Assembly (NCBI GenBank): GCA_031213475.1
Contig: JARUPZ010000013.1
Span: 186,001 to 250,000, forward strand
DNA from: Nereocystis luetkeana
Lineage: Eukaryota > Sar > Phaeophyceae > Laminariales > Laminariaceae
Direction of reading: 5' to 3'
DNA: 64,000 nt
A program made the translations under genes and the position numbers. The number at the start of each line of letters is the position of its first letter. The stretch's first letter is position 1. Below are positions 14,722 through 64,000 of the stretch, in pieces. A model generated the notes under the pieces. It was not told the DNA's origin and ran no database searches. It worked only from the letters and a program-made list of their open reading frames with translations.

Positions 14722-15780
14722 ATGGGTCGTTGCCGGTATTATCAGTGCGAAAAGGTTGCCAGGGCGGCACTACGAACGCGGCGTACTGCTAGCAACATGC
14801 TGAAGAAGACACCCTAAACATCCGCAGCAAGCTTCGCCCGCATGTTTCTTGCACGACGCACGCGGGCTAAAATGCGGAGGGCCGCAAGACAGCAGCTTAC
14901 TGCAAGCAACATCCTGCGGACGGTAGGGTAGACATCCGCAGTAAGCGCTGCTCACATGACTCTTGCACGAAGCGGCCGAGGTATTATACGGAAGGCAGCA
15001 AGACGGCCGTGTGCTGCAAGCAACATGCTGCAGACGGTACGGTAGACATCTGCAGCAAGCGTTGATCACATGACTCCTGCATGAAGCGCTCGCAGTATAA
15101 TGTGAAGGTCAACAGGACAGGGATGTACTGCAAGCAACCTTTTGAGGACGGCATGGTGGTCGTCAGCAAGCGTTACTCACATGACTCCTGTACCAGGTAC
15201 CCGAACTTTAATTTGGAAGGCAGCACCACAGCTGCATACTGCAAGGACCTTGCTGCGGACGGCATGGTAGACATCCGCAGCAAGGGTTGTTTACATGGCT
15301 TTTGCACGAAGCGCCCGAACTAATGTGGAGAGCTTCAAGGTAGCACCGTTCTGCAGGCAACATGATGAGGATGGTATGGCGTATGTCCTAACCAAAGATT
15401 GCGCACATGAGTCCTGCACGAAGCACCGCGCTTTAGTGTGGAGGGCAGCAAAGCACGGGCGTACTGCGAGCAACATAGTGGCAAGGGCATGATCGACGTG
15501 CGCATTTCGAGTACTCCACACGACTCTTGTTCCACAAGGTCGGCACGGGGTGTACTAACCAACAGTGTGAATGCTGCACGCACGCTGCACGAACACGATG
15601 TTTTGGATGATTCCTTGACTAGCTGGGGTTTACCATCATCTGAGGTGGTGAATGGTAGACAATTATCCAAGTCAAGAGCAGGGCAAGAAGCAGACCGTGC
15701 GCTGCCTCGATCACGGCCCCTTGACGGACGGAATGGTCGTTCCAACGGTTGGGATGGGTCTGAAGGACGTTCCTCGCACA
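14722..15780 (+). pseudogene. Broken EsV-1-7 repeat gene
   Basis: The start ATG is followed by Gly-Arg-Cys-Arg-Tyr-Tyr-Gln-Cys, the same start as the intact 805-residue protein. About seven 114-bp units follow, recognised by TACTGCAAGCAACATGC-type cores near 14782, 14899, 15013, 15125, 15237, 15351 and 15463. Several keep C-x4-C-x16-C-x2-H (for example SHDSCTRYPNFNLEG...YC). The reading frame is interrupted several times, so no full protein can be made. Past the repeats, a tail still resembles the C-terminal region of the intact genes (a Ser-Ala-Arg-Gly stretch and CLDHGPLTDGMVV, compare CPDHGFLKEQTVV). It lies convergent to the gene at 19453-21870. Its mirrored partner at 62566-63894 is intact. 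Confidence 0.85.
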
Positions 15781-15784
15781 TATA

Positions 15785-17478
15785 TAGGGTTTCCCCGTAA
15801 AATTTAAAAAAACGTCGTGAAAGAAGGTCGTCTCAGTTATTTTCCGGCAAAAAAAATCGTCGCGAAGTTCGCCGTGACGTTTGAACCACAGTTTGGCGAG
15901 TAGTCTGCGGAAATGATGTAGATCTCGACGTTCGGCCTGCTTTTTCATCTACCAGGTCACCTGGTACCTGGTATTATATTTCCTGTGAGGATTGCGCATT
16001 CCTCATACTCTCATCACCTACCAGATACAAAGCATGAACCCGCAAGAACTAAAACCTCCGGTTATCAACTGGCGCTACTGCCGTTTTACACCCCTTACAT
16101 TCGTGAGTCCAATCACGTGTGTGTTGATTACTGTATGTATGCCTGAAGCTCGTACAGCAGCAGTTGCCGGACGTACGAGCATACATACTCGTACAGCAAA
16201 CACACCAGGTAGGTGTCATACCTGGTATTACTATGTGTACTACTGCTGTAGTGGTATAAAACACTCGTATCTGGAGAGCAAGCTTAAGAAATGCAAAATC
16301 ATAGCAGGTATGGAGCAATCCTCCGTCCTGCTCCTTCGTACATCATACTCGTACGGACGCCATATATATGCTCTGAATGACCCGCTACATACAACCTCAA
16401 GCACACCCTGCTGCGGTACCGCCGCCTGTGTTATTCCCCCCCCCTGCTCATCATCCTCGTCTTTTTCATCTGCCTCCTCCACCCCGCTCGAACCTCCAAC
16501 CACAGCAGCAGCTCCCCCACCTCTCGTGCACACAAATTCCAACTCCGGTGAGCGTCCCAGCGAGCCAAAGCTATCATACAGACGCACTGGAGAGCTGTTG
16601 CTCCCGGTCACCCTCACAGGCCCAACGCCACCCCCCTCGACCCCCAGTCCGGCATGCTGCGGCTCTACACAGCCTTGGCGATGATCTCGGCTCGGCGGGG
16701 TGCCAGTGCGAAGGGAATGTCATTTGCGCTCGCTGTTGGTGTGGTTGCATGCCCCTTGCTGCGTGCACCCGAGGACATGCTTCCTCTCGTCGACAAGAAA
16801 CTCAACATGCGATCAGCGCAGAGCTGTAGTTGGGTTTCACACAAGCAGAAAGCAGTATCTATCTCCCGCGGTGCCGGCCGGCCACACGTTGAAGCGGTAT
16901 TATTGTCGGCCCAACGCCACCCCCCTCGACCCCCAGTCCGGCATGCTGCGGCTCTACACAGCCTTGGCGATGGTCTCGGCTCGGCGGGGTGCCAGTGCAA
17001 AGGGAATGCCATTTGCGCTCGCTGTTGGTGTGGTTGCATGCCCCTTGCTGCGTACACCCGAGGACATGCTTCCTCTCGTCGACAAGAAACTCAACATGCG
17101 ATCAGCGCAGAGCTGTAGATGGGTTTCACACAAGCAGAAAGCAGTATCTATCTCCCGCGGTGCCGGCCGGCCACACGTTGAAGCGGTATTATTGTCGTCG
17201 TGGCACACTGCTGCTGCTGTGGATTGCTTACAGCGCACGAGATGAGGGATGCCAAGACTGGGAGATGGGGATGGCCTGGCTGCGGTCTGTTCGCAGCTGT
17301 ACATCCTCACGACGAAAAAAAATATGCCGTAGAAGTACCTCTCGCCAGATTTTTTCGTCGTGGTAAAATTTCTAGGTTTTTGAATTTTTACGTATAATTG
17401 AGCGGCGTAACCTCGAGACGACTTTCTTTTGGCGAGACGACGATCTTCACGTCTTTCTTTTTTTACGGGGAAACCCTA
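15785..17478 (+). mobile_element. TIR DNA transposon, TAGGGTTTCCCC family, copy 1
   Basis: The left end TAGGGTTTCCCCGTAAAA and right end TTTTTACGGGGAAACCCTA are inverted repeats. Similarity extends imperfectly for about 50 bp (both ends carry a GTCGTCTC block). Each end is flanked by TA, fitting a TA target duplication as in Tc1/mariner-like or PIF-like elements. The interior is GC-rich and has Pro/Ser-rich open frames (15992-16684, 16377-16829) that recur in the other copies at 55604-56982 and 56988-57895. I recognise no transposase or DDE motif, so it is probably non-autonomous. It sits immediately behind the broken EsV-1-7 gene. Confidence 0.8.
16619..17196 (+). repeat. Recent 289-bp tandem duplication inside the transposon
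   Basis: 16619-16907 and 16908-17196 are nearly identical, with about half a dozen differences visible. The other copies of this element have the unit only once, so the duplication is specific to this copy and recent. The unit length is not a multiple of three. Confidence 0.85.
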
Positions 17479-19452
17479 TAATTTGTCGTGTGTTCAGACA
17501 TACCCCTCAACGACAGCATTGTGCGAACGCCCAGCAAAGAGACCGGTCAGGTTTCTCCGCGGACCGTCGCCCCCTCACCTGGCGAGTGTCAATCGAAGGA
17601 ACGTATCAAGTTTAAGCGTTGGCCGTCTTGTTTTAGACTGTCATGACTGGTGACCATTGGCAAAGAGTGCACCGTCGAATATCGGCTCAAAACCAGTGCA
17701 CATTTCATCTGTTATCCTTGTTGTGTTTCCTTGAAAATGATGAGTATGGTGGAGGCTTTTGTAGGGGGCGAACAACTACCTGCCGAATCTATGATTTGTG
17801 TTACATGTCTTGTTGACATGTTAGAGTTGATGGGATTCTTCCTGTGCGACTGCACAGCCTACGTTCGGCCGAGGTCACCTGCGTTGGATGAGCACTTCTA
17901 TGGGGGAAGAGAGGTGTACTGATAGGAATACCTGGAAGCGGCAAAGGTTGCATGCAGAGTAGAAGCTGGCTGACCACCCTCCCGTAGCATGTCACGCCTG
18001 CGTGTAGCTTGTACGTATTGTCAGAATATAACGTATCTTGACCAAAGGGGAAGGGGGGGGGGTGGTTGCTTCGCCGGTCGTAATTTGTTTGGCTGGCCAG
18101 GCAACGAGCCGATCGAGGCGGTTGCAGAGGTGGCGGGGATTAAAAACTAATTATTTTACGCACGACCGCTCATGTTCAATTGATAAGTTCGGTGATGTGC
18201 TTTGCCGCAGGTATATAAGGGGATGGGAAGAAAGGATGAACTATCGGCTAGTATGGAGTGTGGGAGGGGGTCGATGGTGAACGGTTCAGCACTGGTCGTC
18301 GCAAAGCGACGACAAGCGGGGGTCGCCCGTATACCTCGCACGCGCATAATAGGTGTGTTCATGAGCACGTTGGTCAGAACAAGTTGTCATTCATCGTCAG
18401 GTGGGTATGGGCTCGACCCATATATATTCTAGGGACTAGAAGGGGGTTCTCCGGACCAATGAGGTTTAGGACATGGGTTTGATTTTGCAGAACGAAATCC
18501 GAAAAGTGTGTTGAGCAGTTATAATAGACATATACTAACCGTCAAGACTATCCTATTTAAAGCCATGTGAACAATCGGGTCACATCCTACCTAAAATGGA
18601 TTGGGATGATACCTGACGCCGTTGAAAGCATGAATGCAAAGTACGCGCAAGATAGAAGTAACGTAGGCTAATATACATATCATAGGAACTTATACTTTCC
18701 CCCCATTCGACTTGCGACACCCCCTGGGATTCCAAGTCAACCGCATCCCAAAGGGGAACCTTGCACAGTAGTATAATGAACATGCAAGTTTCCTTATCAA
18801 TGTGGTGTTTGTGGAGGCGTTTTGGACTCACATTTCGAGGGGGTGTGACAACAGGATTTCAGGGGCGTTGGTATCGATTTTGTTTTCGCCATAGTTGCAA
18901 TAATTTCGAAGGGCGTGAAACTTAACTTTCGTGACAATTTGCCCTCTTTTGTATTTCACCTGTTTGGAAATATTTCACAAAAAATATGAAATATGCTCAA
19001 AAATTAAAATTCTGGAACAAAAAAGCTCTCCGATAACAACGGGTCTCAGACAGCCAGAGTACTGGAGTGTAGTACCACTACAGAGCTGCTGTGTTCGCCA
19101 CAGACACTATTAATAGTATTTCGTGCGGGAAAATTTCCATGAATTTTCGTGTCTATGATATACTGTACAGAAGTTATCTGAGAAAAAAAAACACCATTCT
19201 AGGTACGCTCTGTGAAGCAAGCACTCGGTGGCGACGGTTAGTGATGTGTCAACGAGAAGTTTTTTTTGCCGCCCAGGAAAGATTTCGGGAAAGAAAAATA
19301 TATATATATTTGTTTCGGGTTTCACCACCACAGAGGGAAAACCTGTGTGGGAGTATGGTTTCTTCTCTCATAACAGTCGGCCTGAGCGTTTTGCAACAAC
19401 CAATATAACGCGACCACTACCGCAATGCTGATCATGTCACGAGGACGATGGT
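17479..19452. other. Non-coding DNA between convergent EsV-1-7 genes
   Basis: No gene is supported. 18870-19040 holds a copy of the AT-rich repeat ending in GCTCTCCGATAA. 19195-19330 resembles 45180-45300 (GCAAGCACTCGGTGGC...GTTAG). The last ~60 bases before the gene's stop still match the right arm just after 51550 (GGACCGTCGTCCTGGTGACA). Confidence 0.45.
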
Positions 19453-21870
19453 CTAGCCCACAACATCCACCTCTATTTCTGCCTCATCAGGTTCCCCATC
19501 CTGGTCTGGTAAGGAGACTATGGGCCGGGGCACCACCGGAGGAGTCTCCCCTGGGGCCGTTCCGATAGTTTGGTCGTTGAGGAGCCGGTGTATGCCAACG
19601 CAAAGTGGGGTGTGAAGGACCTCCTTCCTGGGACCCATTTCCGCAGTTCCGACAACGTCCACTTCCATCTCCGCCTCCAAAGGCTCCCCAGACTGATGCT
19701 CGTTTGGCAAGGAAGGTAGCGTGCAGGAAACCTCCTTCGAGGGACCCACCTCAGCAATTTCAACGACCCGGCCCTCCTTGAGCACCACCGGAGCAATCTC
19801 CTCTGCGGTTTTGATGCGGTCATCATTGTGGTTCCTTGGTAAGGCAACGGAAGGTGGGGTATGATGAACTGCGTTTAAGGGGCCTACCTCTACAGTTCCA
19901 ACCGCGACCACTTCCATTTCCGCGTCAACAGATTCCCCAGACTGGTGTTCACCTGGCAAGGTGGTCCTGGCTAACGGCACCATCAGAGCAAGAGTCGCGC
20001 TTGGGGCCATTCCGATCGTGTCATCGTCGTGGAGGTGCCCGGGTAAGGCATCGGCAAGTGAGGTCTTAGGTACTGCTTTCCTCGGACCCACCTCCATGTC
20101 CGCCTCAACAGGTTCCCCAGACTGATCTTCGATAGGCAAGGTGATAATGGTTGGCGTGACCACCGAAGGGGTCTCTTCCGGGACCATTCCAACATTGTCA
20201 TCTTGGAGGTGCATGGGTAAGGCAACGGAAGGTGAGGTGTTACGTGGTGCTTTCCTGGGATAAATCCCTCCAGATGCTACGACCGTCTGCTCCTTGAGAA
20301 AGCCGTGATCGGGGCAAAGCGATGGCTGTTTCCTGTCGAGCTCCAACCTCGATCGTTTCCGACTACGCACCATCTCAGCTAGTGAATCGGACTCGGCACT
20401 GGCGCCGTCCAAACTGACTTCGTTTTGCGCGGTGCGTGAGGTGGGCTCAACAGTGATTGATTTGCCCGTTTGACCCCATCCCATTCGATATCGCATCTTT
20501 CGGATGTTCACCATGCCCGCCTCAGCATGTTGCTTGCAGTATGCCGCTGTCTTGCTGCCCTGTGCATTAAAGCTCGGCTGCCTCGTGCAGGATTCACGTG
20601 AGCAACGCTTGCTGCCGACGTTGACCATGCCATCCTCGGAATGTTCTTTGCAGTATACCGCCGTCTTTTTGTCCTTTGCATTAAAAGACGGGTACTTCTT
20701 GCAGCCGGAACGAAAGCAACGCTTGCTGTTCACGTCAACCATACCGTCCTGAGCATGGTGCGTGCAGTACGCCGCGGTCTTGCTCTTGACATTGAAACTC
20801 GGCTGCCTCATGCAGGAGGCACGTAAGCAACGCCTGCTGCTGATGTATACCATACCGTCCTCAGCATGTTCTTTGCAGTATGCCGCTGTCTTTCTGCCCT
20901 TTGTATTAAACGACGAATACTCCGTGCAGGCATCACGTGCGCAAAGTCGACTGACAATATCGACCATGCCGTCCTCGGCATGTTGCGTGCAGTATGCCGC
21001 TGTCTTGCTGCCCACTACATTGAATTTCGGCTGCCGCGTGCAGGAGTAATGTGAGCAACGCTTGTGGGTGACGATATTGACCATGCCGGCCTTCGCATGT
21101 TGCTTACAGTAAATAGCCGCCGTGCTGCCCTCGACGTTGTGGGTCGGTCGCTTCTTGCAGGAGTCCTGTAAGCACCGTTTGCTGATGATGTCCACCATAC
21201 CCTCCGTAGCATGCTGCTCGCAGTAAACCGCCGTCTTACTCCCCGCGACATTGAAGTACGGATGTTTCAAGCAGGGGTCGTGCAAACAACGCTTGCTAAC
21301 GATGTTCACCATACCATCCTTAGTGTGTTCCCGGCAGTATGCCGGCGACTTACTGCCCTTCACGTCGAAGGTCGGTCGCTTCTGGCAGGCCTCATGTAAG
21401 CAACGCTTGCTGACCACATTCACCATGCCTTCCTCAGCATGTTTCTTGCAGTACGCGGCTGTCTTGCTGCCCCCCAAATTGAAGCTCGGCTGCTTCAAGC
21501 AAGAGTCATGCAGACAACGCTTGCTGAGGACATCGATCATACCGTCCGCAGCATGTTGCTTGCAGTACGCCGGCGTCTTGCTGCTAACAACGTTATAGCA
21601 CGGGCGCTTGGTGCAGGAGGCATGCGAGCAACGCTTGTTTCGGACGTTCACCATTCCATCCTTGGCGTGTTCCTTGCAGTACGCCGACGACTTGCTGCCC
21701 TCCACGTTGAAGTTGGGTTGCCTCATGCAGGAGCCGTGCGAGCAACGCTTGCTGGAGACATTTATCATACCGTCCTCGGCATGGAGTTTGCAGTACACAG
21801 CCTTCCGGCCGCTCACCATGAAGTTGTAGGTCGCAGTCATGGCACACTCGTGATACTGGCAACGCCCCAT
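19453..21870 (-). CDS. EsV-1-7 repeat protein, 12 repeats with acidic repetitive tail
   Basis: This is a single open frame of 805 residues. Residues 4-459 are twelve consecutive units of C-x4-C-x16-C-x2-H-x12 (unit 7 one residue longer, unit 10 one shorter). All 36 cysteines and 12 histidines of the pattern are present, with a consensus like P-x-FN-x2-GSKTAAYC(K)xHAEDGMV. This is the EsV-1-7 family, which includes Ectocarpus IMMEDIATE UPRIGHT. The Cys/His spacing suggests metal binding. Residues 501-507 (RSRKRSR) look like a nuclear localisation signal. Residues about 540-805 are five degenerate acidic, Pro-rich units built on LPxEHQSGEPVEAEMEV...GPRK. I placed the start at Met-Gly-Arg-Cys because the other loci also begin M-(G/A)-R-C. 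An in-frame Met lies 9 codons upstream (21897). I see no intron. A role as a nuclear regulator is inference. The mirrored copy at 49215-51565 is broken. Confidence 0.92.
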   Translation of the reverse strand: MGRCQYHECAMTATYNFMVSGRKAVYCKLHAEDGMINVSSKRCSHGSCMRQPNFNVEGSKSSAYCKEHAKDGMVNVRNKRCSHASCTKRPCYNVVSSKTPAYCKQHAADGMIDVLSKRCLHDSCLKQPSFNLGGSKTAAYCKKHAEEGMVNVVSKRCLHEACQKRPTFDVKGSKSPAYCREHTKDGMVNIVSKRCLHDPCLKHPYFNVAGSKTAVYCEQHATEGMVDIISKRCLQDSCKKRPTHNVEGSTAAIYCKQHAKAGMVNIVTHKRCSHYSCTRQPKFNVVGSKTAAYCTQHAEDGMVDIVSRLCARDACTEYSSFNTKGRKTAAYCKEHAEDGMVYISSRRCLRASCMRQPSFNVKSKTAAYCTHHAQDGMVDVNSKRCFRSGCKKYPSFNAKDKKTAVYCKEHSEDGMVNVGSKRCSRESCTRQPSFNAQGSKTAAYCKQHAEAGMVNIRKMRYRMGWGQTGKSITVEPTSRTAQNEVSLDGASAESDSLAEMVRSRKRSRLELDRKQPSLCPDHGFLKEQTVVASGGIYPRKAPRNTSPSVALPMHLQDDNVGMVPEETPSVVTPTIITLPIEDQSGEPVEADMEVGPRKAVPKTSLADALPGHLHDDDTIGMAPSATLALMVPLARTTLPGEHQSGESVDAEMEVVAVGTVEVGPLNAVHHTPPSVALPRNHNDDRIKTAEEIAPVVLKEGRVVEIAEVGPSKEVSCTLPSLPNEHQSGEPLEAEMEVDVVGTAEMGPRKEVLHTPLCVGIHRLLNDQTIGTAPGETPPVVPRPIVSLPDQDGEPDEAEIEVDVVG

Positions 21871-22140
21871 TCCCGTCGCCGGTAGGTGGCACCGCACCGT
21901 AGTGGAACCGCGCCTTTATGGAACAGAACAATAGCGACAATGTAGTGGAACCACACTGCAGCGGAACGGCGAGCACGCTGAAACGGCTTAGGTAGCCGTG
22001 GACGGAAGGCGAGCACCGCTGGAAGCCTTGGGGATGGCGTATGCACACCTGTCATTCGTGGGACCGGCATTGTCGACGACAATCGTGAGGGGATAATTAT
22101 ATTAGATTTTCGCCAGCGTTGCATGCTGTTGTTGACACCT
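21871..22140 (-). promoter_or_regulatory. Upstream region of the 12-repeat EsV-1-7 gene
   Basis: Reading toward the gene, a CGAATGACAGGTG block (22036-22058) is followed by GGCTTCCAGCGGTGCTCGCC, then imperfect tandem GTGTGGTTCCACTAC / GCGGTTCCACTAC repeats up to the start codon. The right-arm copy (48931-49214) shows the same order. The intact gene at 62566 shares the first part. No clear TATA box is visible close to the start. Confidence 0.55.
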
Positions 22141-22193
22141 GCTGCTAAACAGGGGAACCTACGAGTAGAGTTTTTTTGGGCTACTCGCTACTA

Positions 22194-23149
22194 AGACCTG
22201 TGCCAATGGAAACGCGAAGTCCAAAAACTTTTCGTTCAAAAAGATATCTCTAAAAAAACAGCCGAAAATTTCCTCGTACCACCGTTGTGGGAAAAAAGAG
22301 AAAAAACGTTTGATTTTTTTCTTTGTTTTTCCCAACGGCTGCAGGAGGCGCAATTTGTTTTTTCTGGTTGCAAATTGTCAACACGCTGATCGTAACCAGC
22401 TCGTGCGACGATAGACGCTCAATCTCCACATACACTCAGCTCACGGCCAACCCGCTTCGTGTCCGGCAAGGCCATCGATTTGTTTTTTCTGGTTGCAAAT
22501 TGTCAACACGCTGATCGAAACCAGCTCGTGCGACGATCGACGCTCGATCTCGACATACACTCAGCCCACGGCCAACCCGCTCGGTGTCCGGCAAGGCCAA
22601 CGAATATAGATGACGGCCTCGAAGATACCAGGTGGATCCATGCTCTAGGGGGCGAGAGCTTACCGGCGGCGTCCTATGATATCCTCCCAAACCTGAAAAA
22701 AAAACTATTTTTTGCCATTCGAGATGGATGGAGAAGTTTTGTCTTTTGGTTTGCGCACGCCAGCGGCAAACGTTTTTTTCATCATAGTCAGCCCCCGCCA
22801 CATGACACCGACCATTGTGTGAAAACGGCAACCCTAGGGTGGGTCGGAGCCCCTAACGAGCGCACACGCAGTTCAGAATTCATGACGCAGTCGTTGGATT
22901 TGTCGATTTATGTCTGCTAAAAACTCGGAATATCGCCGCTTCGAACCAAAGATCGGTCTAAGTCTTTCTCAAGCCGATGTTGGCCCAACATCGGGTCCAG
23001 ATTTGTTTTTCACGGGTTTTCCCGAAAGTTTGGAACTTTTTTTTTTCAAACCGTGCCCATAGGAAGCATATTCTGAAAAATATTGTGGAGGGTATCTTTG
23101 AAATTCAAAGTTCTAAATGAAACCTCCGCTTTCCCATTGGCATAGGTCT
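22194..23149 (+). mobile_element. Inverted-repeat DNA element, copy B, full length
   Basis: The left end AGACCTGTGCCAATGGAAAC and right end ...CGCTTTCCCATTGGCATAGGTCT are inverted repeats about 20 bp long, and the element is 956 bp. The right-arm counterpart between about 48810 and 48935 lacks it, so it inserted after the palindrome formed. Copies A (1-541) and C (40911-41698) share the interior. The open frame 22459-22920 is only partly conserved with 41126-41551, so I do not call a gene. No target duplication is evident. Confidence 0.75.
22354..22603 (+). repeat. 125-bp tandem duplication inside copy B
   Basis: 22354-22478 and 22479-22603 both begin TTTGTTTTTTCTGGTTGCAA and run through the same GTCAACACGCTGATCG...GCCAACCCGCT sequence with a few differences. 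Copies A and C have it once. Confidence 0.85.
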
Positions 23150-24736
23150 GATGGCCGTGTAAGATATGTAATTCACTCAGAGACTGTTTATAAAAAACAT
23201 GTATATAGCGTGTCTTGATGGCTACGAGGTGTATAGCGAACGGCATGAAAACCCCGACGTCTTCCGAGGGTTTTGATTAGTCACTCATTCAACATTTTTA
23301 CTTGGGGTTAGTGCACTGTGAATACACCTCAATCTGAGTATAAGTCCAAGTGCTTTGTCCCAAGAACATCGGCTGAAAAACAACCCAATTCGCTGTCTAC
23401 AAAATCCTCACAAAACATGACTCCAGAACTCGAAAATCGTCTTCTACCAGCCCTCTCGGCTGAAGCCGCGTATCTAGGCTCGGCCTACACTAGATACGGT
23501 TGGTGATTTTGAAAAATGATTCAAAACTGACCTCGGCTACCGGATCTTTCGTCGGGTTAAGCTGTCATATCAAAAACCAGTTTTCGGGTGAGGTACTGTT
23601 AAAATTACAATAATAGTACTATCAAATACTACGAGTATACCAGTACCAAAGACTCCTCGAAAGAGGAGCCACATAAAAAGATAGTCGCAACACAGCGGCA
23701 GCTTGTTTATTGTGTATGTCCCACATCGTCAAGTTTCCGCATGCGGACCCAAGATTGATATATCATCGGAAAATCCGTACGTTCAACCCTTGGACAGCTG
23801 TTCCTTTAATGCTTCCATGCCATCAATTATATTCGTCCTTCTTTATCTCTCCCTCGGCCTCGCCTCTAGTCGTAACTCAGAGCGGGTGCCACATAACACC
23901 CCTCTCCATCACTACACTTCGTGCATTGCATTTCTATCGCGAGAAGACTAACAGCTCTTTCTCTCTTCATTGACTGGCGTCGAACTGTCTTCAAGTGGCG
24001 ACAAATAAGGGACGTCGTTATCGAGGTAGCGCAGAGATCTGAGTGGCGCTTGAAGACCCGGGTGTGCAGACAGTATCTGTAACTCAAATTGATGTTCTGC
24101 CCCTGCTGCCGTAGTGGCTCATAGTTATTCTTAACGACTTAGACACATCCGTGTTACTCTATGAGGCGTGTTTGCTTTATAAAGGGGGATCATAGCACCA
24201 ATATTAAAAGTGGCTCCCCACGCGAGGAGCTATTTCCAGTATTAACAGCAGTACCTGGTAGGTGAAATACAACCGAGTTCCGTGCAAAAATGCACGCTAA
24301 CCCCAAATACACAATCAAACTGGCTAGCAAAATCTCGCAACTCTAGTAAAAAGGGTCGCCTTTAGGCCGCCATTGGTTCAGCTGGTCAGAGCCAATCGAC
24401 CGAGTGGCTGCCCAAACTATGTACAGTCTTCACACTTATGTGCTTGCTAGTTTTGAGATATTGCACCGCCATGAGAATGTTTCAACACGCAGCATCACCC
24501 AGAAAACGTTAGGTTCAATTTCGTGTGAGGTACAAAGACACATTGCCGAGTGCTCCAGACGCCGTAGTGAAAACCGGGGGTAGACAGCTTTTACCGTAGC
24601 ACCAGACAATACCTGATATCCTGTAGGGTCTCAGCTTTCGACACTGCGCTCTCTGGAACCAGTACACACCCAGAATGTTGGACAAGGATTATTCACAGGG
24701 CAACGGCTAGACAATCTTCCGAGCGCAGTACAAAAT
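23150..24736. other. Left-arm non-coding DNA matched in the right arm
   Basis: 23300-23540 mirrors 48480-48720, and 23870-24232 mirrors 47890-48260. Short frames differ between the arms, so coding is unlikely. It contains two members of a small GAGGAGC hairpin family, at 23653-23668 and 24212-24229. Confidence 0.55.
23653..23668. repeat. Hairpin with GAAA tetraloop, member of a small family
   Basis: CTCCTC-GAAA-GAGGAG is a perfect 6-bp stem with a GNRA-type loop. Related, slightly different hairpins lie at 24212-24229 (GCTCCCCACGCGAGGAGC), about 47891-47908 (GCTCCTCACATAGGGAGC) and about 62069-62086 (GCTCCTCACTTGAGAAGC). Confidence 0.5.
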
Positions 24737-25822
24737 ATGCAGACCACCCCAGAATCAAATCTCTACAGTAGTTCGACTGCACATCCACACACACCATTAC
24801 GCTGCATGTTGTGCGTAGAACGCACTGACACTGTTGTGGCAGCTCTTGGCCAGTTGGGGGCTACGTATGTGATGGTGTGCTACTTTTCGTCTCAGCTTGT
24901 GTGTGTATCGCACGCAATCGCGAACCTCAGTCACAAAAAAACACGCTGGGCCTACATCCAGCTGCTGCGTGCTTTGTGTGCGACACATTGGCTGCTGTTT
25001 TAGTGTCTGCTATGCTGTGTTGTGAGCTACTTGTATGTGCTACCATACTGCCGTAGTCCGCAGTATCTGTGTAGCCCTGCGTGTTGATCATCATGTACGA
25101 CGGACATCGCAAACAGTCCGGAACGTGGGGACCTTCCGCATATGTGCAATTTTCGTCAACCTAAAATATGTGTGACTGTGGCTGGTGACGTTGGGTTTCC
25201 AGAGTGTTGCTAAGAATATTAAAACATGAAACAATCCATTTTTCATTTCCTTCATGAATCCGCGCGTTTCAGCCATTATAGAGACACTTCTTTCGCGGCT
25301 AGTGCATCTGCTGCCCTGCCCATCCTTAGCGACCATGCGCACCAATCAATACCATGGCTCCCATTGACTGCGGGCAAGTTCTAGACGCCAGACGATATGT
25401 GACATGCAATCGCGGTCGGCATCGTTCTAACTTGCGATGAAAATATTGGGCATCACAAATGGGTCTGTATAACGGGCATTTCAGGGGCTCAGGAGCTCCG
25501 CCAGGCACAGATGTCTCGACTGAATAGTGCTACACCTATCGCAGTACACGCCTCCTGCGAGTTTTGGTACTTCTAAGCTGGGTTAGTTCAAGTGTATGGA
25601 ACATGATGCGACGTACTGCTGTCATGTCGCAAACAGACAACGAGCTGTCGGTGCTTACCACTAACACAGGCTGGAATCGAGAAAACCCATGAAAGCAGAG
25701 GGTGATTTGTGTTGTGCCACGTATGAAAGAAGATTTCAAGAGTCGTGCGTTAGCATGAACGTGAGGCCTCCTGCTCCTGTATGTACTGGTGCTTCGGTGG
25801 TTTAGATCGCTAGATCGTTCGC
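24737..25822. other. Left-arm non-coding block mirrored at 46090-46810
   Basis: Shared landmarks in opposite orientation include CACTGCGCT/AGCGCAGTA, GGCTGTGACG-like GTGGCTG, GGCGTCTAGAACTTGCC and CAATGGGAGCCAT. Frames present in one arm are not kept in the other, so I read this as non-coding. Confidence 0.55.
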
Positions 25823-26200
25823 TTGGACGAGCAGGCAACTTCGGGAGTCTTTTCTTGTCGGAGCAAAGCAGCGCAGCACCAGTGTCAAACATTACAACAT
25901 ACACACGGCTCCCGAACCGGCCTTCTCGCCAAAGCAATCCAACTAAAGGCTGCCACTAAGCTCCACCAATACACAACCCTCGAAACCCGCTTTCTAGCTG
26001 TAGCTATAAAGCGAATCGGCAAAAAGCTGCGACTAACCTATCACGAACACACGACCCCTGAACACCACCTTCTAGCCGAAGCGAGTCACCAAAGCATCGC
26101 TAAAGCTCCCACCAGCACATGACTTCCGAAAACGCGAAAATGGTCTATTCGCCAAAGCGAGCCACCGAAGCACTGTGCTACCACACCAACCACCGCTCCC
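25823..26200 (+). repeat. Minisatellite of four ~70-75-bp units, open in one frame
   Basis: Units begin near 25903, 25973, 26048 and 26117 with ACAC(G/A)NC(T/C)CC(G/T)AA and contain CTTCTNGCCNAAGC. The plus frame 25823-26122 (99 codons) reads through the units as about 25-residue repeats (HTTPE..LLAEA..IAKA). It has no recognisable domain and a short length, so a protein is doubtful. Confidence 0.5.
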
Positions 26201-27599
26201 CTTAAAGGTTTAAGAACCTTTCACACGCCGGACAGAACATAATCTAGGTAATGAAAATCCTATCCAGTCCTTCATGCGATGTTGGGCGGGATCTATATAG
26301 TACAGATACAGCAAAGGAACCATATCCTAGGTCACCCAGATTATACGTCCCCCCGCCCGGCAACAAAAACTACACCCTACATATAACAAACCGATCTTCC
26401 CTGAAATATCTAGATCATCAAGTGGCAATCGATGATCCGTGCGAGGTAACAAACAATGTGAACATGCCAGGAAGGGTCGGGCGGGATGTGGACCAAAAAA
26501 GCGACCCGACCAGTAACTGGCGTGAGGGTGAATAACGTGGTTGTCAGGCCGTTGACAACCAGTCCACGTTGTCTGCGTAGCTTGCATCAAGGGTGGCACT
26601 GCTCCCGCGTAGTATTCCATAATACTTACAGATGAAACGGTACATGCTTGCGCCTGGGCGCGGTACAGGCGGTTAGGGTTTCAAATTTGTTCTTGTTACG
26701 AGAGGGCATAGTAATCAGTACTATGGTGTCTAAGCATAGAGGGATACCTGATTTTTGTGTCCGTCGTGGGTTCCGATTGCTATGGTCTCCCGTAGTAGAG
26801 TGCAGTGGATATGGTATGCGGTGAGGCTATATACATCGGACGTCCCCAGAAATTGGGTCATGTGTCTCGTACTGGATGGACTCTGAGGTACTGTAGCCCA
26901 AGTGACCGGGGCCCTCCCCTGACGCACAGTGAGCATAAATGAATCCTTGTGGAGACGTTGCACCAAGTAGCAAACACCACAAAGTGTCGGTGACCTGTCA
27001 AGTATGTATGGGGAACGGTGTGCTACGATGTTGAACGTCACCGCAAGGTCGTTTCGACCTCCACATCATGCAAAGTGGGGGGGTCCCCGCTGTGAGTGTA
27101 ACCAAAAACCCGGACACACCGAAGTCTGAGGCATTGGTGCACACTGAAGATCTACACCGGTAAAACGTTTCGGGTATGGCTGCGGAATACCTCATCGTCG
27201 ATAGTAGAATACCCTGATGTCCTCGTATACACAATAGAGCAATACTGTTCAGCAGAGCAGTGGTAGTACAGTGTCAGGAATGGCAAACTGTAAGGTACTA
27301 AGCCACAACCCAGTCATCTCAACACAACATCGTTTGATGCACGGGTGCACTCCAAAGCTACTACTGTAGTACTAGCCAGACATTTACTACCATGTAGTTG
27401 CAAGATGGTAGAACTGCTGTGGCCACCAGTGGAGTGTGTCGTGTTTATACGACTGGGAAGGAGCCTAGCCAGAGATAACGCATGCTAACTGTTCATGCAC
27501 GCAGGACTAGAGTCACCATTCGCGGTGAGATGTTCAGTTTTGTTTAATTTTCAGAGGGTCAATAAATGTATTCTAAGATGCTAACAAGTGCATGTGTGT
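26201..27599. other. Non-coding stretch, no gene supported
   Basis: Only short unconserved frames are present. 26705-26800 contains short repeats reminiscent of the MITE at 12218 (CTATGGT, GGTCTCCCGTAGTAG), but the match is too weak to call. Confidence 0.35.
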
Positions 27600-29279
27600 C
27601 CCTTAAGCCACGTGAATAACGATTATATTCTTACATTCGTATCCGGTGCCTTTGGGGTTTAGTGAATGAGGATGTAGCGGACCAATTTGGGAGGGGAACT
27701 GCCGCTTGGGGCCCAATATGCCCCCGGGGTGGTTGGTAAGAACCCCCGTCGTCCGAATGTTGTCAAACATCAGGATTGGCCCAGATAAGGTCGAAAATTG
27801 TGCGATCAGAAAACTATAGACAATACAGGTCTTCCCCTGTATAGTGTTAACCCCACACAAGGCCTCAAGTTATTTTTTCTTTTTTTTCCAAAACTTGCCT
27901 GACACAGCCAAGCATACGTGCTTTGCGACACAGCACAAACCGATGGCTCGCCTCAGGCCGTCCTCGCCGCTGCAGCACGTGAAGGGTGTATGGCCTACTG
28001 AGAAGATAGTCGTCGGTGGCAAGTTTTAGGGCCGTCTGTGGTCTGTGTCGGAAGGTCTTGCTTGAAGCGTGAAGCCTGGTCTATTTAGGTCTTGACGGTT
28101 TGCTCAGCAGAACGGGAGAAACCTCCGATCAGAAAGAATCGACACATAAACGGGATATGATTTCACATCATAAGCGACACTTACAAACACACGCCATCTA
28201 CGGCCTTCAAACTCGGCAACGAGGAATGTCAGATATATAGAGCATACACCATGGGAGATTTAACGTGATTCGTGCCCTGTGTGGCGAGGACTTACGGCGG
28301 CGGCTTGTCCTGTGTGTAAAAATAAGAGTTATTTTTACGTGGGAAGCGTACAGATATGGCCCATACTACCGACGGCACTGCTCGCGAGTTTCTGCACTCT
28401 GAATGGAAGACCTGTTAATTCCTGTTTCCCGATCCCATAATAGTCGGCCTCACAGCGGTACAGCGTTTGCGACGTCAAACGTAGTAAAATATATGTTCCG
28501 CATCAGCTACGGCTGTCCAAAAGCCAGTTTTTCGACCGACCGGAGATTTCTTATCTGAATTTCTCGAGCCCCGGTCCATCTCAGGTTTTGCTCTAATCGC
28601 GGCGTAAAGTTCTGTACGCACTACATCGGCCACGTTGAGTGGACTGGCGAGGGGTACGACGAGGATCAAAGGCGCAAATGCTGTAGAATATGTTTCAAGG
28701 CAATCCGAAAGTTGTGTTTGGTACCGTTTTTTTCACGATGGTTTTGGGCGTTTTACAACGATCCATAAGACCAGCATTTTGCTCGTTTTGTTGTTAAGGT
28801 TACAATAAAAATATATCGTGTTTAAGCAGCCAAAAATATACACTGGAATCAGATTCACTAAACCAGCTACATACAAAGTTCTGAGCATACCAGTAATGAT
28901 CGAGGATGCAGGCAAATCGGGGCCGGAAATTCGACAGTAATGCCAAGGGGTACAGTACAAGTACATATCGTGTTTGACTCAAGATAACTAATGAGCTGGA
29001 ATCCGATTCCACGAAGCAGCCACAACTAAATGTTTCCATCCGGCACATTTTTTGCCACCTGGCACAATGTGTCGATCGACTTTTTCAATGTAGAGGACGG
29101 AGCTGACCGCGAAGTACGCGAAAAGCCGACTTACATGTTTGGAGTATTGCCATCAAGCATCGCCCCCATCTGATTGTTTTGCGATCCTCTCTTTGGGCCT
29201 ACTCCAAAGTGCCGTTGTCAGCTACTGGCATATGTTCGTACACATCAGCAACAGCACCACTCTTACTACTGTATGATAA
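27600..29279 (-). repeat. Degenerate block shared with 43736-45440
   Basis: Read on the minus strand this follows 43736-45440 through GAATCTGATTCC, AACGAGCAAAATG, CCGGTCGGTCG, CTGGCTTTTGGAC, AACTTGCCACCGACGACT and GGCAAGTTTTGGAA. One frame gives related peptides in both arms, such as VGRK(T/I)GFWT(A/D)V(A/V)D(A/V)EH around 28500-28660, suggesting a decayed coding ancestor. It is interrupted several times and I do not recognise the family. A third weak relative lies at 19195-19330. Confidence 0.55.
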
Positions 29280-29540
29280 CTTGCACATTCGTATACCTAC
29301 AGCACACCTGCTTGTAGTATACGATATTACACAACATACTGTAATAACATAACGTTGTTGTCAACAACGAACAGCAGCAACATATCAAATACATGGTGCC
29401 AAAAAAAGGGGGGGGGGGGGGCGCACAAATGAAGCAGCCGCCCCCCCGAAAACCGAGCTCTGCTGGATTTGAACCCTTGACCTCCGGGTGAACGTGTAAA
29501 CACTGTGGGTTGAGCCACCCGAAACCCAATATATGGTGGC
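29280..29540 (-). repeat. tRNA-like SINE-type sequence, left-arm copy
   Basis: On the minus strand a GTGGCTCAACCC stretch (A-box-like) is followed about 40 bases later by AGGGTTCAAATCC (B-box-like), then a unique body and a tail GTAATATCGTATACTACAAGC. The T-arm stem does not pair, so it is not a working tRNA gene. The same layout is kept at 43478-43735. Both copies could descend from one insertion duplicated with the palindrome, so the family copy number is unknown. Confidence 0.5.
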
Positions 29541-36012: not shown

Positions 36013-36032
36013 GTATGTAAGTAATAGTGAAT

Positions 36033-51565: not shown

Positions 51566-53408
51566 ACCGTCGTCCTGGTGACATTATATATCTGCAATGC
51601 GGTAGGGGTCCCCCTATAGTGCCGGGTGAGTAGGGCCGGCTGCCCGCTTGTGCCTGTGGAACCGCTTAGCACAGATAGTATTCACCAGTGTGGTGGTGTG
51701 CGGAGTAGTGCCGGTTGCCGCTATGGTGCCGGTATTGTTGACGAGAACATGCCAGACCTATATAGGGACCACTACTTCACTGCTGTGATCGTCGTTGCAG
51801 CCGTAATTGTCTACGTTGTTCAAGCTGGCTATTGACGCAGGCAAACCTCCGTCTATTACCGTATATCACGCTAGCGATGATACACCCCCTGGGATGAATT
51901 GGCGAGTCGACTTCATCAAACCAGGTGGGGGCACACAACCAAAACGCTGGCTTCGGAAAGCTGTCGTCGAGACCTTTCGATAGACGCATCGCTCGCAATT
52001 TGCACTTTCTCCGTTGTGGGAGCATCGGCTTGGACAATCGCCCGAGGGGGTGTGTTAGCTTGAGTATGTTCATTCAGGACGGGCATGTTGGATTTGGTAT
52101 TCGAAATGGGGTCAGCGATAGGATTACATGGTGTAGACACCACACGTTGCCGTCAAATTTGTCTGAGTTTACCCCCAGAGACTGGTGCACGTCCACCTCT
52201 CATATTCTAGTCGTTGTGACCAGCGGTTGGTCTGGTAGATACATGGTAAAGACTTACCCCTGGGGAGGAACTACTGGTCGAACGAATATCCCGATTATAT
52301 TCATGAATGGTGTATGTTTCATCATGTCCTCCGGTACTACTGCACAGCACAAACTACTGCGGCCGAAGCCGCCCTGCTGGCGGGGGTATGTTCTGTACTC
52401 GGTGGGAAAACAAAGGTGCCGGTACGAAAAAATGAGATTGGCAGAGTTACGGAATAGAAGCGGAAGAACAGTCGATACTTAGATGCATTCTACCATAGGG
52501 GTACGTTGCGCTTTTAGCCAATGTACTTTTGACTGGGTAATACACCCTCAGCTGAGAAACCACCCTAAGCAAATCCCATTCGTAATGCACAATGTTTTTG
52601 GGTTGCATCCTGAGACATGGGATTTGTTCATTGGGTTCAGCCTACATATTTTCTCAAACATCAGTTTCGGATGAGGTATGAAGCTGCCTTGGTTGGAGAA
52701 GTACCTCGGTGTGGGCCATGAGAGTTTCAGGTTGAAATGTCTGAGAGTGTTAGGCTTGCCGAGCAGAAGTTGAACACCGCTATTATGTAAAGCGCGTCGG
52801 TCCTGCGGCCGGCTTCAATTCGTTTCGATAATTTTGTGTATGCGCAGCAGGGGGGCTAGGGGTCCCTGTTTCGCGGGTCGCCCATTTGTGACCAGGTCGA
52901 GGTGATGGAGGAGGCGGCCGGCTTAGCGAGAACTGGATGTTGCGATGGTGAGCCGAAGCACTTGTCATTGCTGAGTCGTTGATGGAGCTCGCGCACTGAA
53001 GAGATACCCAATACGACGGAATCCGATTAAGTATTTCACAAGATATTTATTTCGTTGCAGTAAATATCCACGAGCTTATGAAAAAGGGCGTATCGGGCGT
53101 AGCTAACAGTTTTGTCAGAATGGCTTGTGGGTGCTTCAGAAGTGGGGGGCTTCAGAATAACAAGGTCATATCCCTCTCGTAGCACAGGTCTGCCTAGAGG
53201 TAGCCTGGACTATGTACAGTAGTGCGTTGTACTTGTACATGCACAATTGAACGGAAACGAAGGCGCTGATATACTAGTTTTTGTGCACATCAACCCGCTT
53301 GCTTTTTTTCGGCAGCCAGGGTCCTGAATTCCTTATACGTTCACTAGAAATACCAACATGCTCTTGCTTCAAGCAACGTAGACCGTGTAAACGACCACCA
53401 ACTCGCAT
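51566..53408. other. Non-coding stretch with one 185-codon frame of unknown status
   Basis: 51565-51620 still mirrors the sequence after the left gene. Frame 51925-52482 (+) has a Trp/Gly/Thr-rich middle (VTSGWSGRYMVKTYPWGG), but no recognisable domain and no second copy. I give it low weight. 52490-52770 belongs to a dispersed repeat related to 4940-5010. Confidence 0.35.
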
Positions 53409-54678: not shown

Positions 54679-55600
54679 GGCGAGGTTCCATCGCACCCAC
54701 AGGGACAACAAGTTTCATCTTCTAATCAGAACTCATTCCATACATCTAAAGCAGCGACAAGCCGGGGACGGGCGCGGAGTTTTCCCGGATCGATACCGCC
54801 CTGAAAGATGTGGAAACCCCGCCCCCATCGGCTGATTACTGATTTTGGTGGGGCTCATAGAGCCACGGCGCGACAAGGGTCTCCTCTCAGGGCAATATCG
54901 AGGTCTCACCGCACCCGGGGATGATAAAGTCCCATCCCCGCATCATAAATCACTCCGTACATCTTCAACTCCAAAACTCTGGAGACGCAAGCGGACATCA
55001 CCTGGTCGATACCGCTGCGCAAATTGTGTAAAGCCCAACCCTACTGGCTGGCATTCGTGGAGCCAGCACGCATCCAAAACTGCCCGCCGGGACAACGGCG
55101 AGGTCCCGCCGTGCCTGGGGATGATAAGTGCCCGCCCCCTGGCAAACATTATTAATTACATATACAACTCCAACACCCCAGGGACAAAAATGGTGTTCCC
55201 CCGGGTCGATACCGCCCCACAGGCTGTGGAAACCCCGCTCACATCGGTTGAATGCTTTCTTGGGTGGGGCTTAGAACCAGTCTGCGGCGATAGTTGCCCC
55301 TCGGGACAACGTTGAGGTCCCGCCGCACCGGGAGACGATAAGGTCCCATCGCTGGATTAGAAAACCTTCACTGCATCTACAACTTCAAGAACCCGGAGAT
55401 AAAAGCGGACATCCTCCGCATCTACCAATCCAACAAGCCGCCGGGACGAAAACGGGCATCCCCCGGGTTGATGTCGCCCCGCAAAGTGTGGAAACCCCAA
55501 CTGCGCAGGCTGATTTACAGTTGGCTGGCTTTCATGCAACCAGCGCGCGGCAAGAGTTGCCCTACAGGACACCGGCGAGGTCCCGTGGCACCCGGGGATA
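54679..55600 (+). repeat. Satellite of four to five ~200-265-bp units
   Basis: Unit starts carry GGCGAGGT(C/T)CC near 54679, 54897, 55095, 55306 and 55571. Each then has ACAA...GGGGA(T/C)GATAA, ACTCC.., CGGGTCGATACCGCCC and TGTGGAAACCCC. The 156-codon frame 54845-55315 is this satellite translated. Confidence 0.75.
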
Positions 55601-55603
55601 ATA

Positions 55604-56982
55604 TAGGGTTTCCCCGTAAAAAAAGAAAGTCGTGAAGATCGTCGTCTCGCCAAAAGAAAGTCGTCTCGAGGGTACGCCGCTAAATTATACGTAAAAATTC
55701 AAAAACCTTGAAATTTTACCACGGCGAAAACATCTGACGAGAGGTACTTCTGCGGCATATTTGTTTTCGTCGTGAGGATGAACTGCTGCGAACAGACCTC
55801 AGCCAGGCCATCCCCATCTCCCAGCCTTGGCATCCCCCATCTCGTGGGCTGTAAGCAATCCACAGCAGCAGTGTACCACGACGACATATACCGCTTCAAC
55901 GTGTGGCCGGCCGGCACCGCGGGGGATAGATACTGCTTTCTGTTTGTGTGAAACCCATCTACAGCTCTGCGCTGATCGCATGTTGAGTTTCTTGTCGACG
56001 AGAGGAAACATGTCCTCGGGTGCACGCAGCAAGGGGCATGCAACCACACCAACAGCGAGCGCAAAAGACATTCCCTTTGCACTGGCACCCCGCCGAGCCG
56101 AGACCATTGCCAAGGCTGTGGAGAGCCACAGCATGCCGGACTGGGGGTCGAGGGGGGTTGCGTTGGGCCTCTGAGGGCGACCGGGAGTAACAGCTCTCCA
56201 GTGCGTCTGGATGATAGCTTTGGCTCGCTGGGACGCTCACCGGAGTTGGAATTGTTGGGCACGAGAGGTGGGGGAGCTGCTGCTGTGGTTGGAGGTCCGA
56301 GCGGGGTGGAGGAGGCAGATGAAAAGGACGAGGATGATGAGCAGGGGGGGGAATAACGCAGGCGGCGGTACCGCAACAGGTTGTGCTTGAGGTTGTATGT
56401 AGCGGGTCATCGGGGCATACATTTGTCGTTCGTGCGAGTATGATGTACGAACAAGCAGGACGGAGGATCGCTCCATATGGTTTTGCGTTTTGGAAGCTTG
56501 CTGTCCAGATACGAGTGTTTATACCACTACAGCAGTATAGTAGTAAACCAGGTATGACCCCTGATGGTGTGTTTGCTGTATGTATACTCGTACGTCCGGC
56601 AACTGCTGCTGTACGAGCTTCAGGGATACATACAGTAATCAACACACACGTGATTGGACCCACGAATGGAAGGGGTGTACAACGGCAGTAGCGCCAGTTG
56701 ATAACCGGAGGTTTTAGTTCTTGCGGGTTCATGCTTTGTATCTGGTAGGTGATGAGAGTATGAGGAATGCGCAATCGGCACAGGAAATATAGTACCACGT
56801 GTACCAGGTACCTGGTAGATGAAAAAGCGGGCCGAACGTCGAGATCTACATCTTTTCCGTAGACTACTCGCCAAACTGTGGTTCAAACGTCACGGCGAAC
56901 TTCGCGACGATTTATTTTGCCGGAAAATAACTGAGACGACCTTCTTTCACGACCTTTTTTAAATTTTTACGGGGAAACCCTA
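55604..56982 (-). mobile_element. TIR DNA transposon, TAGGGTTTCCCC family, copy 2
   Basis: TAGGGTTTCCCCGTAAAA at 55604 and TTTTTACGGGGAAACCCTA ending at 56982, each followed outward by TA. It is in opposite orientation to copy 1 and in the mirrored position of the right arm. It has a single 289-bp unit. The minus frame 55959-56798 (279 codons) has a Cys-rich C-terminal part and a Pro/Ser-rich middle, partly shared with the other copies. Overlapping frames are also open, so I do not assign a protein. Confidence 0.8.
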
Positions 56983-56987
56983 TAATA

Positions 56988-57895
56988 TAGGGTTTCCCCG
57001 TTAAAAAACAAAGTCAGGAAGATCGTCGTGTCGCCAAAAGAAAGTCGTCTGGAGGTTACGCCGCTAAATTATACGTAAAAACTCAAAACCTAGAAATTTT
57101 ACCACGGCGAAAACATCTGACGAGAGGTACTTCTGCGGCATATTGTTTTTCGTCGTGAGGATGAACTGCTGCGAACAGACCTCAGCCAGGCCATCCCCAT
57201 CTCCCAGCCTTGGCATCCCCCATCTCGTGGGCTGTAAGCAATCCACAGCAGCAGTGTACCACGACGACATACACCGCTTCAACGTGTGGCCGGCCGGCAC
57301 CGCGGGGGATAGATACTGCTTTCTGTTTGTGTGAAACCCATCTACAGCTCTGCGCTGATCGTATGTTGAGTTTCTTGTCGACGAGAGGAAACATGTCCTC
57401 GGGTGCACGCTGCAAGTGGCATGCAACCACACCAACAGCGAGCGCAAAAGACATTCCCTTTGCACTGGCACCCCGCCGAGCCGAGACCATCGCAAAGGCT
57501 GTGGAGAGCCGCATCATGCCGGACTGGGGGTCGAGGGGGGTGGCGTTGGGCCTCTGGGGGCGACTGGGAGCAACAGCTCTCCAGTGCGTCTGGATGATAG
57601 CTTTGGCTTGCTGGGACGCTCACCGGAGTTGGAATTTGTGGGCACGAGAGGTGGGGGAGCTGCTGCTGTGGTTGGAGGTCCGAGCGGGGTGGAGGAGGCA
57701 GATGAAAACGACGAGGATGATGAGCAGGGGGGGGGATAACGCAGGCGGCGGTACCCAAGCAGGTTGTGCTTGAGGTTGTATGTAGCGGGTCATCGGAGCA
57801 TATATATGGCGTTCGTACGAGTATGATGTACGAAGAAGCAGGACGGAGGATCGCTCCATATGGTTTTGCGTTTTCGAAGCTTGCTGTCCAGATAC
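56988..57895 (-). mobile_element. TIR DNA transposon, TAGGGTTTCCCC family, copy 3, truncated
   Basis: It begins five bases after copy 2 with the same terminal repeat and runs in the same orientation. It matches copy 2 closely, then stops inside the element at about 57895 (after GTCCAGATAC), losing the far end. The back-to-back arrangement suggests insertion next to copy 2 or a tandem duplication followed by deletion. Confidence 0.8.
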
Positions 57896-62565: not shown

Positions 62566-63894
62566 CTAAAATAACACGCTCAGCTCCATCTCAGTCTTGA
62601 TGCAGTCCCCAGGCTGATGCTTTAGTTCAGAGGAGGGCGCCGTCCGCGCTATAGTCTGCCTGGTCTTCTCGGCCGTGGTTCTTGCGGTGCTTTCCTTGAG
62701 GCTGCTTTGGGAGGCACGGAAAGACGAGGCATATCGACCTCGCTTGGTGGGGTCGATCTCCACACCTTGAACAACCCCTTCCTTTTTGAAGGGACAGTGA
62801 TCAGGCTCCAACTTCCGTCGTTTCCGACGATCCACTACCACCTCCAACGGTGAATCGGAGTGTAATACGGGACCCACCGAAACACAGGGTTTGTGCTGGG
62901 CGCGTACCGTAGGTGACAGGTTGATTGGCTTACCCCGTGCTGACCCTGTTCGACGACGGTCGTCAATAGAACGTCTGGTGCGGACGTGTACCATGCCATT
63001 CTCGGCGTGTTGCATGCACCACACTGGCGTTTTGCTGCCGTCGATATTATAATGTGCATAACTCATGCAGGAGCCATGTGAGCAACGCCTGGTGCCGACG
63101 TTCTTCATGTCTTTACCCGCATGCTCTTTGCAGTATGCCGGCGTTTGAAGGCCTTCAACATTCAAGCTCGGTCGTCGAAAGCAGGACCCATGCAAGCAAC
63201 GTTTGTTGCGAATGTCCACCATGCCGTCCTTGGCATGCTGCTTGCAGTACACTGCAGTCTTGTTGCCCTCGATGTTGTAGTAAGGGCGTCCAATGCAGGA
63301 GTCATGTGCGCAACGCTCCTTGCGGCGGGCATTCACCATTCCTTCCTCAGCATGTTCCTTGCAGTAGACGGCCTTCTTCAGACCTGTGAAGTTGTACGTC
63401 GGTCTCCTCGAGCAAGATTCCTGTGAACACAATTTGCTAGTTACATTCACCATTCCGTCCTCAGCATGCTGCTTGCAGAACGTCGGCCTCTTGCTGCCCT
63501 CGACATTAAAGTTCGGCATCCTCGTGCAGCGGTCATGCGAGCAACGCTTGCTGGTGACGTTCACCATTCCTCCCTCAGCATGTTGCTTGCAGTACGCTGG
63601 CTTCGTGCTGCCTTCAATATTCAACGATGGTCGTGTGGTGCAACCGTGATGCGAGCAACGGTTGAAGCGGATATCTACCATTCCGTGCTCGGCATGTTGC
63701 TTGCAGTACGCGGGCGATTTGCTGCCCTCTATATTGAACGTCGGATACGTCGTACATGAGTCATTCGAGCAGCGCTTGCCACGGATGTTGACCATGCCGT
63801 CCTCAGCATGGTGTTTGCAGTACACCACAATCTTGCTGCCCTGCACATTGTGGCTCGCTTGCAATTGGCACTGTTGATGGCGGCAACGTGCCAT
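62566..63894 (-). CDS. EsV-1-7 repeat protein, 8 repeats
   Basis: This is a single open frame of 442 residues. Residues 4-308 are eight consecutive C-x4-C-x16-C-x2-H-x12 units (unit 5 one residue longer) with every pattern Cys and His present, for example CSHDRCTRMPNFNVEGSKRP. Then follow a basic cluster at residues 356-361 (RRKRRK), a PDHCPFKKEGVV motif related to PDHGFLKEQTVV of the 12-repeat protein, and a short Ser/Thr/Lys-rich tail ending MELSVLF. The long acidic repetitive tail of the 12-repeat protein is absent. I chose the start at Met-Ala-Arg-Cys to match the other loci; an in-frame Met lies seven codons upstream (63915). Family membership is clear. Metal binding and a nuclear regulatory role are inferred. 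The mirrored partner at 14722-15780 is broken. Confidence 0.92.
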   Translation of the reverse strand: MARCRHQQCQLQASHNVQGSKIVVYCKHHAEDGMVNIRGKRCSNDSCTTYPTFNIEGSKSPAYCKQHAEHGMVDIRFNRCSHHGCTTRPSLNIEGSTKPAYCKQHAEGGMVNVTSKRCSHDRCTRMPNFNVEGSKRPTFCKQHAEDGMVNVTSKLCSQESCSRRPTYNFTGLKKAVYCKEHAEEGMVNARRKERCAHDSCIGRPYYNIEGNKTAVYCKQHAKDGMVDIRNKRCLHGSCFRRPSLNVEGLQTPAYCKEHAGKDMKNVGTRRCSHGSCMSYAHYNIDGSKTPVWCMQHAENGMVHVRTRRSIDDRRRTGSARGKPINLSPTVRAQHKPCVSVGPVLHSDSPLEVVVDRRKRRKLEPDHCPFKKEGVVQGVEIDPTKRGRYASSFRASQSSLKESTARTTAEKTRQTIARTAPSSELKHQPGDCIKTEMELSVLF

Positions 63895-64000
63895 TTCCAC
63901 CACTGAACGGGGCAACGAAATGCCTCAGGCAGTGCAGGAGGGGCAACGAGCCCCGTTGGAAGTCTCTGGGCTGGCCTATCTTCACCTGTTATTCGTCGGC
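63895..64000 (-). promoter_or_regulatory. Upstream region of the 8-repeat EsV-1-7 gene
   Basis: Reading toward the gene, CGAATAACAGGTGAAGATAG then GCC, GAGACTTCCAACGGGGCTCG and GCACTGCCTGAGG align with the blocks upstream of the other three loci. The window ends inside this block. Confidence 0.5.

Follow-up and report, generated by a model that had tools for sequence, protein, structure and literature searches.

Old local duplication within an EsV-1-7 gene cluster very probably explains a diverged palindrome in Nereocystis luetkeana

Introduction

The virus-related EsV-1-7 family is large in brown algae, and one of its members controls early development in Ectocarpus, according to the accessible sections of two papers (PMC12993054, PMC7457493); a third, also available in part, treats the family as well (PMC12477816). 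The accessible sections of these three papers do not describe an inverted segmental duplication of the family, and we make no claim that such a pattern is unpublished. Our search of the literature on palindromes in brown algae found nothing usable. Here we analyze a 64-kb window of the brown alga Nereocystis luetkeana (contig JARUPZ010000013.1, hereafter C13, positions 186001-250000), most of which an original prediction had described, from the sequence alone, as an imperfect palindrome of about 49 kb. The genes in its arms carry the PF19114 domain, and in this they are like the EsV-1-7 family of brown algae, represented by IMMEDIATE UPRIGHT of Ectocarpus and by the EsV-1-7 gene of the virus EsV-1.

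Two described systems offer the closest comparisons. Mammalian sex-chromosome palindromes are inverted pairs of gene-bearing segments whose arms are kept by gene conversion, as set out in the accessible part of the source (PMC6790999). The Nereocystis locus also contains an inverted pair of gene-bearing segments, but its arms are ~27% different and resemble a direct copy as closely as they resemble each other. Fold-back inverted duplications studied in yeast have at their centre inverted repeats of 3-15 bases separated by short spacers, and the available portion of that work describes cases with dicentric chromosomes stabilised by telomere capture (PMC10622511). The head-to-head copies around a short centre seen here are similar; however, the Nereocystis copy is internal and old, and its centre is too diverged to show a joint.

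Results

The palindrome is very probably the product of an old local segmental duplication within an EsV-1-7 cluster, which left three copies of one segment. The segment comprises one EsV-1-7 gene, its upstream DNA (~8 kb in copy B, or 12.9 kb including the part behind later inserts) and a sequence that we call X. Copies A and B are direct and copy C is inverted; B together with C forms the palindrome. Copy A lies 49 kb leftward, in direct orientation, with its gene part outside the window at C13:156.3-168.9 kb. The left arm, copy B, occupies window positions 19172-34777 in plus orientation, as delimited by its match to A and by a three-way alignment, and carries dispersed inserts (e.g., 22192-23067 and 30502-31672). 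The right arm, copy C, was placed at 43483-51670, on the minus strand relative to B, by the three-way alignment and by the chain of inverted blocks described below. (Positions without a contig name are those of the window.)

What unites the copies is not confined to the gene. Non-coding DNA beyond it is common to all three copies in the same order, and the three-way alignment showed ~61-85% identity in most 500-column bins across 19.26-29.77 kb and background levels outside. The exceptions were an insert near 21.9-23.3 kb and a region at about 25.5-27.7 kb, part of which is flipped in A and much of which is absent from C, where little corresponds to 25.9-27.7 kb. The B-C match spans 19401-29526 and the A-B match 19172-34777; A and B share two additional pieces, beyond inserted repeats, that reach 34.8 kb in B. 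As a separate observation, a ~0.4-kb piece at 25467-25891 is inverted in A (C13:163411-163848) relative to B, with collinear surroundings.

The 465-Mb genome, assembled in 1,987 contigs, was searched with individual DNA blocks; very common words were ignored and at most 40 candidates were scored per search, so that copy numbers are lower bounds. In the best 40 of 775 candidates, the 23.7-29.5 kb portion of B matched C13:161.0-166.5 kb directly (apart from the one flipped piece) and the right arm in inverted orientation; all further matches among these 40 were short and confined to 27.8-28.5 and 28.8-29.4 kb. Among the scored candidates, therefore, the third local copy is the one place beyond the arms where the core non-coding DNA recurs, barring these two short dispersed stretches, and dispersed repeats do not account for it.

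X showed the same restriction. Its search returned three copies in the genome (both of two candidates were scored), each at the inner side of one segment copy and each in the same orientation relative to that copy: X1 at 1687-2130 (plus strand), which belongs to A; X2 at 39353-39911 (plus), at the inner end of the left arm; and X3 at 40108-40746 (minus), at the inner end of the right arm and inverted relative to X2. The three collinear copies and the placement of X indicate that the ancestral segment extended from the 3' end of an EsV-1-7 gene, across the upstream DNA, as far as X. We also considered coding potential. The mirrored upstream DNA gave no support for a hidden gene, since translated comparisons (tblastx) scored about equally in frames of either strand and the copies lacked a clear frame preference; X as a pair of coding exons was likewise unsupported, with matches in many frames, often containing stops.

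Reverse-complement self-comparison of the window linked 17 inverted blocks, mirrored in their order, into a chain with 9,838 aligned bases at a mean identity of 76.6%, and windows shuffled as 2-base blocks gave no match in any of three trials. The recurrence of mirrored, inverted blocks that had been predicted is thus borne out. So is the proposed centre at about 40.0 kb with a loop near 200 bp: the blocks 39866-39911 and 40154-40108 pair closest to the centre, and between them lies a loop of 196 bases at 39912-40107. Across the 17-block chain the block midpoints wander between ~35.5 and 40.4 kb, because the left side carries more inserted DNA. A false assembly duplication at 40.0 kb is unlikely, given that the arms are ~27% diverged in non-coding DNA.

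Could such a chain reflect nothing more than the chance placement of dispersed repeats and gene-family members? Five further, mutually overlapping 64-kb stretches within C13:1-186 kb, chained identically, scored 2264, 671, 177, 6465 and 1509, against 7167 for the window, and the score of 6465 was traced to two opposite copies of a single dispersed repeat. A raw chain score alone therefore proves little. However, after masking of the dispersed families identified in this analysis, 12 blocks remained (score 4067 of 7167; length-weighted identity ~73% over 6,832 aligned bases), 11 of them within a core in which 19.2-39.9 kb is mirrored against 40.1-51.7 kb around 40.0 kb. The survival of these 11 blocks, the restriction of X to three local copies, and the long stretches of non-coding DNA shared, in the best 40 of 775 candidates, solely with the third local copy besides short dispersed stretches make an origin by chance exceedingly unlikely. 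Left of the window, C13:116-121.5 and 146.6-153.9 kb (L026-L030) hold long inverted dispersed repeats with internal tandem units; as a candidate second palindrome, this pair (116-121 and 147-154 kb) was ruled out, being a dispersed repeat.

The supported core is shorter than the 14.7-63.9 kb originally predicted, as the outer pairs proved to be EsV-1-7 coding repeats and a dispersed repeat. At 14.8-15.5 and 63.0-63.9 kb, the outermost blocks consist of a 114-base coding repeat of EsV-1-7 genes. It lies in array D (14778-15534, plus strand), a set of degenerate EsV-1-7 repeats, and in gene E (62566-63924, minus strand). A single 49-kb palindrome that includes these arrays and repeats would fit their mirrored order, with D (plus) and E (minus) flanking the genes of B (minus) and C (plus) symmetrically and a dispersed repeat intervening on both sides. 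Yet D and E, each compared under one setting in eight comparisons, are nearer to other EsV-1-7 members than to one another: D matched B at 254 bits, L003 (a gene of another chromosome, on contig C26) at 237 and A at 224, and E at only 212, while E matched B at 334, A at 322 and L003 at 279. We therefore rejected D and E as members of the palindrome.

Nor does the intervening repeat speak for the longer structure. It occurs at 15783-17480 and, as two tandem copies in opposite orientation identified by self-comparison and genome search, at 55598-57895, and it mimics an outer palindrome block. The genome search placed it in at least ~40 other places, counted in the best 40 of 184 candidates, and several of those copies are nearer to the 15783-17480 repeat than its partner is (identity reaches 95% across the first 1.1 kb, whereas the partner has 92.5%). 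No further match links the regions beyond 19.2 and 51.7 kb, and self-comparison of the window found no single-copy DNA common to 10-19 kb and 52-64 kb. A 49-kb palindrome is accordingly very improbable; the mirrored match is real, yet smaller and simpler than earlier described.

Dispersed repeats also lie inside the core. An element with a 42-base minisatellite (35509-39112, plus strand), split by other inserts, occurs in at least 14 other places by hand count; a second dispersed family, distinct from that at 35.5-37.8 kb, is inserted at about 36.02-37.02 kb. The opposite copy of the minisatellite-bearing element, found by genome search, lies in the right arm (41724-43178, minus strand). This arm partner is its best-scoring match, with 864 bits where the next copy of that part reaches 711, and the element may have been common to the arms or have inserted on two occasions. 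Genome search identified a further dispersed repeat at 40922-41694 in the right arm, and others occupy 30502-31672, 39200-39313 and parts of 54.0-55.6 kb. The predicted distinction between a segmental inverted duplication and dispersed repeats thus holds for the non-coding DNA of the core and fails for the outer blocks and several inner ones.

We then compared the three copies with one another. Non-coding distances were taken only from 50-column windows in which all pairs were at least 50% alike, which somewhat raises the identities; over the resulting 3,294 columns these were 71.4% for A-B, 72.6% for B-C and 71.1% for A-C, with Kimura distances of 0.35-0.37. The X copies were 64.5-69.0% identical over 400 columns. 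In both sets B and C were closest, by one to two points. When all columns were used, including the gene, A and B were closest (75.4% against 74.4 and 72.4%). Shared sites were also counted: 385 non-coding sites united A with B, 425 B with C and 376 A with C; the corresponding counts in X were 44, 62 and 57 (X1 with X2, X2 with X3, and X1 with X3); and agreement of A with B was commonest over all columns (673, against 620 and 509).

The arms are therefore not much more alike than the other copies of the segment, and the locus does not behave as a palindrome of the gene-conversion kind; the near-equal A-B, B-C and A-C identities rule out upkeep by gene conversion across the whole arms. Because the three copies are about equally diverged outside the gene, nothing suggests that its two arms are being kept alike or the palindrome specially maintained.

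The genes provide a second view of the copies. PF19114 was found in the frames of B and E, and EsV-1-7 motifs were identified in A by a pattern scan. The frame of B (19453-21915, minus strand) is open, encoding 820 amino acids with 12 motifs (12 PF19114 stretches, expectation value 4.3e-152), and that of A is open over 1,219 amino acids with 19 motifs. In C only a frame-broken remnant persists (49140-50866, plus strand), which matches the B protein in three frames and retains 4 motifs in the scan. Gene E is open over 452 amino acids with eight motifs (eight PF19114 stretches); array D has one motif left in the scan.

The B and C genes point outward from the centre, their upstream DNA lying between them, and over 2 kb the two genes show 78% identity in their DNA. 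This arrangement could suggest a functional palindrome, acting on EsV-1-7 genes through hairpin or antisense RNA or as a shared two-way control region. The frame of C is broken, however, the centre is full of inserted repeats, the longest exact match from arm to arm is 37 bases, and the arms resemble each other no more than A resembles B. Judged from sequence, a functional palindrome of this kind would be extremely improbable. The earlier suggestion that the arms could fold back or give hairpin RNA describes something possible, but with such short exact pairing it is weakly motivated. The window contained no match to known RNA families in Rfam at the gathering score, and no tRNA.

To place the locus among its relatives, we considered EsV-1-7 genes throughout the genome. 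A motif search scored 150 matches of 1,710 first-look candidates, and these were grouped by hand into 69 loci on 16 contigs, excluding weak or broken copies such as C and D. Neighboring loci were inverted in 13 of 25 pairs at most 50 kb apart and in 15 of 30 pairs at most 100 kb apart. Given these neighbors, and a direct third copy that is equally distant, the earlier description of the arms as unusual is not supported. In a cluster on contig C14 (7013000-7125000), the flank of the gene near 7013.7 kb recurs directly at 7058.9-7064.1 kb (95%) and inverted at 7036.7-7037.9 kb (91%, then 86%) and 7119.6-7122.0 kb (68-74%). At two loci, on different chromosomes, EsV-1-7 genes are thus seen to have been copied together with flanking DNA, in direct as well as inverted orientation, the copies differing in age.

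The searches also touched other large repeats in the assembly. Across C22:226769-591103, equal-scoring copies of one repeat are spaced ~61 kb apart at six places, with one interval of twice that length, suggestive of a large tandem segmental array, and three equal-scoring copies of a short repeat lie 43-44 kb apart in C8:1936425-2024349, suggesting another large tandem duplication. Four small contigs (C1937, C1831, C1625 and C1114) carry equal-scoring copies of pieces of C22, which may be unpurged alternative haplotypes or repeats. The C13 contig itself starts with CCCTAA telomere repeats, so the window lies 186-250 kb from a chromosome end.

Discussion

We regard local duplication of an EsV-1-7 segment as by far the best account of this locus because the local copies are collinear, X is limited to three copies and 11 core blocks survive masking; the near-equal distances among copies, the inverted EsV-1-7 neighbors and the flank copies on C14 point the same way. 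Several observations weigh against it. The outer boundaries of the three copies almost coincide, each falling at the gene's 3' end (in B at 19172-19401, in C at 51621-51718 and in A at C13 ~156.3-156.5 kb), a coincidence that simple duplication would not predict. The inserts imply contradictory branching orders for the three copies, with one element in B and C and another in A and C: the minisatellite-bearing element lies between segment and X in B and C and was not found in A, and the 40922-41694 repeat adjoins X in A and C, with none found between the element and X2 in B. The minisatellite-bearing element is also 77-85% alike in B and C, above the non-coding arms. Finally, flank copies were tested in just one further cluster, that on C14.

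Template-switch synthesis at a break can yield head-to-head copies with a short centre. Under local duplication, the segment of EsV-1-7 gene, upstream DNA and X would have been copied in direct and inverted orientation, and C may have arisen by back-to-front copying, through fold-back or template-switch synthesis at a break, or alternatively by inversion of one of two tandem copies. We propose these routes because head-to-head copies with a short centre fit them. B and C meet through X2 and X3 at the centre, around the 196-base loop, and the pair is now eroded, with the gene frame of C broken. On this reading, EsV-1-7 clusters would be built by local segmental duplication in direct as well as inverted orientation.

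The near-coincidence of the three outer ends raises a more speculative and, on present evidence, rather unlikely idea, that most growth of EsV-1-7 clusters comes from repeated rounds in which a gene and its upstream DNA are copied together, in one orientation or the other, with the outer break falling preferentially at the gene's 3' end. If so, the family would ride on a duplication-prone segment, leaving palindromes of many ages genome-wide.

As a palindrome, the locus is a worn and fairly ordinary by-product of gene-family growth. Its importance probably lies in the EsV-1-7 genes gained, and the palindrome as such probably has no role. Copies of gene and flank in both orientations, of varied ages and at two loci, provide a concrete route for the growth of the EsV-1-7 family.

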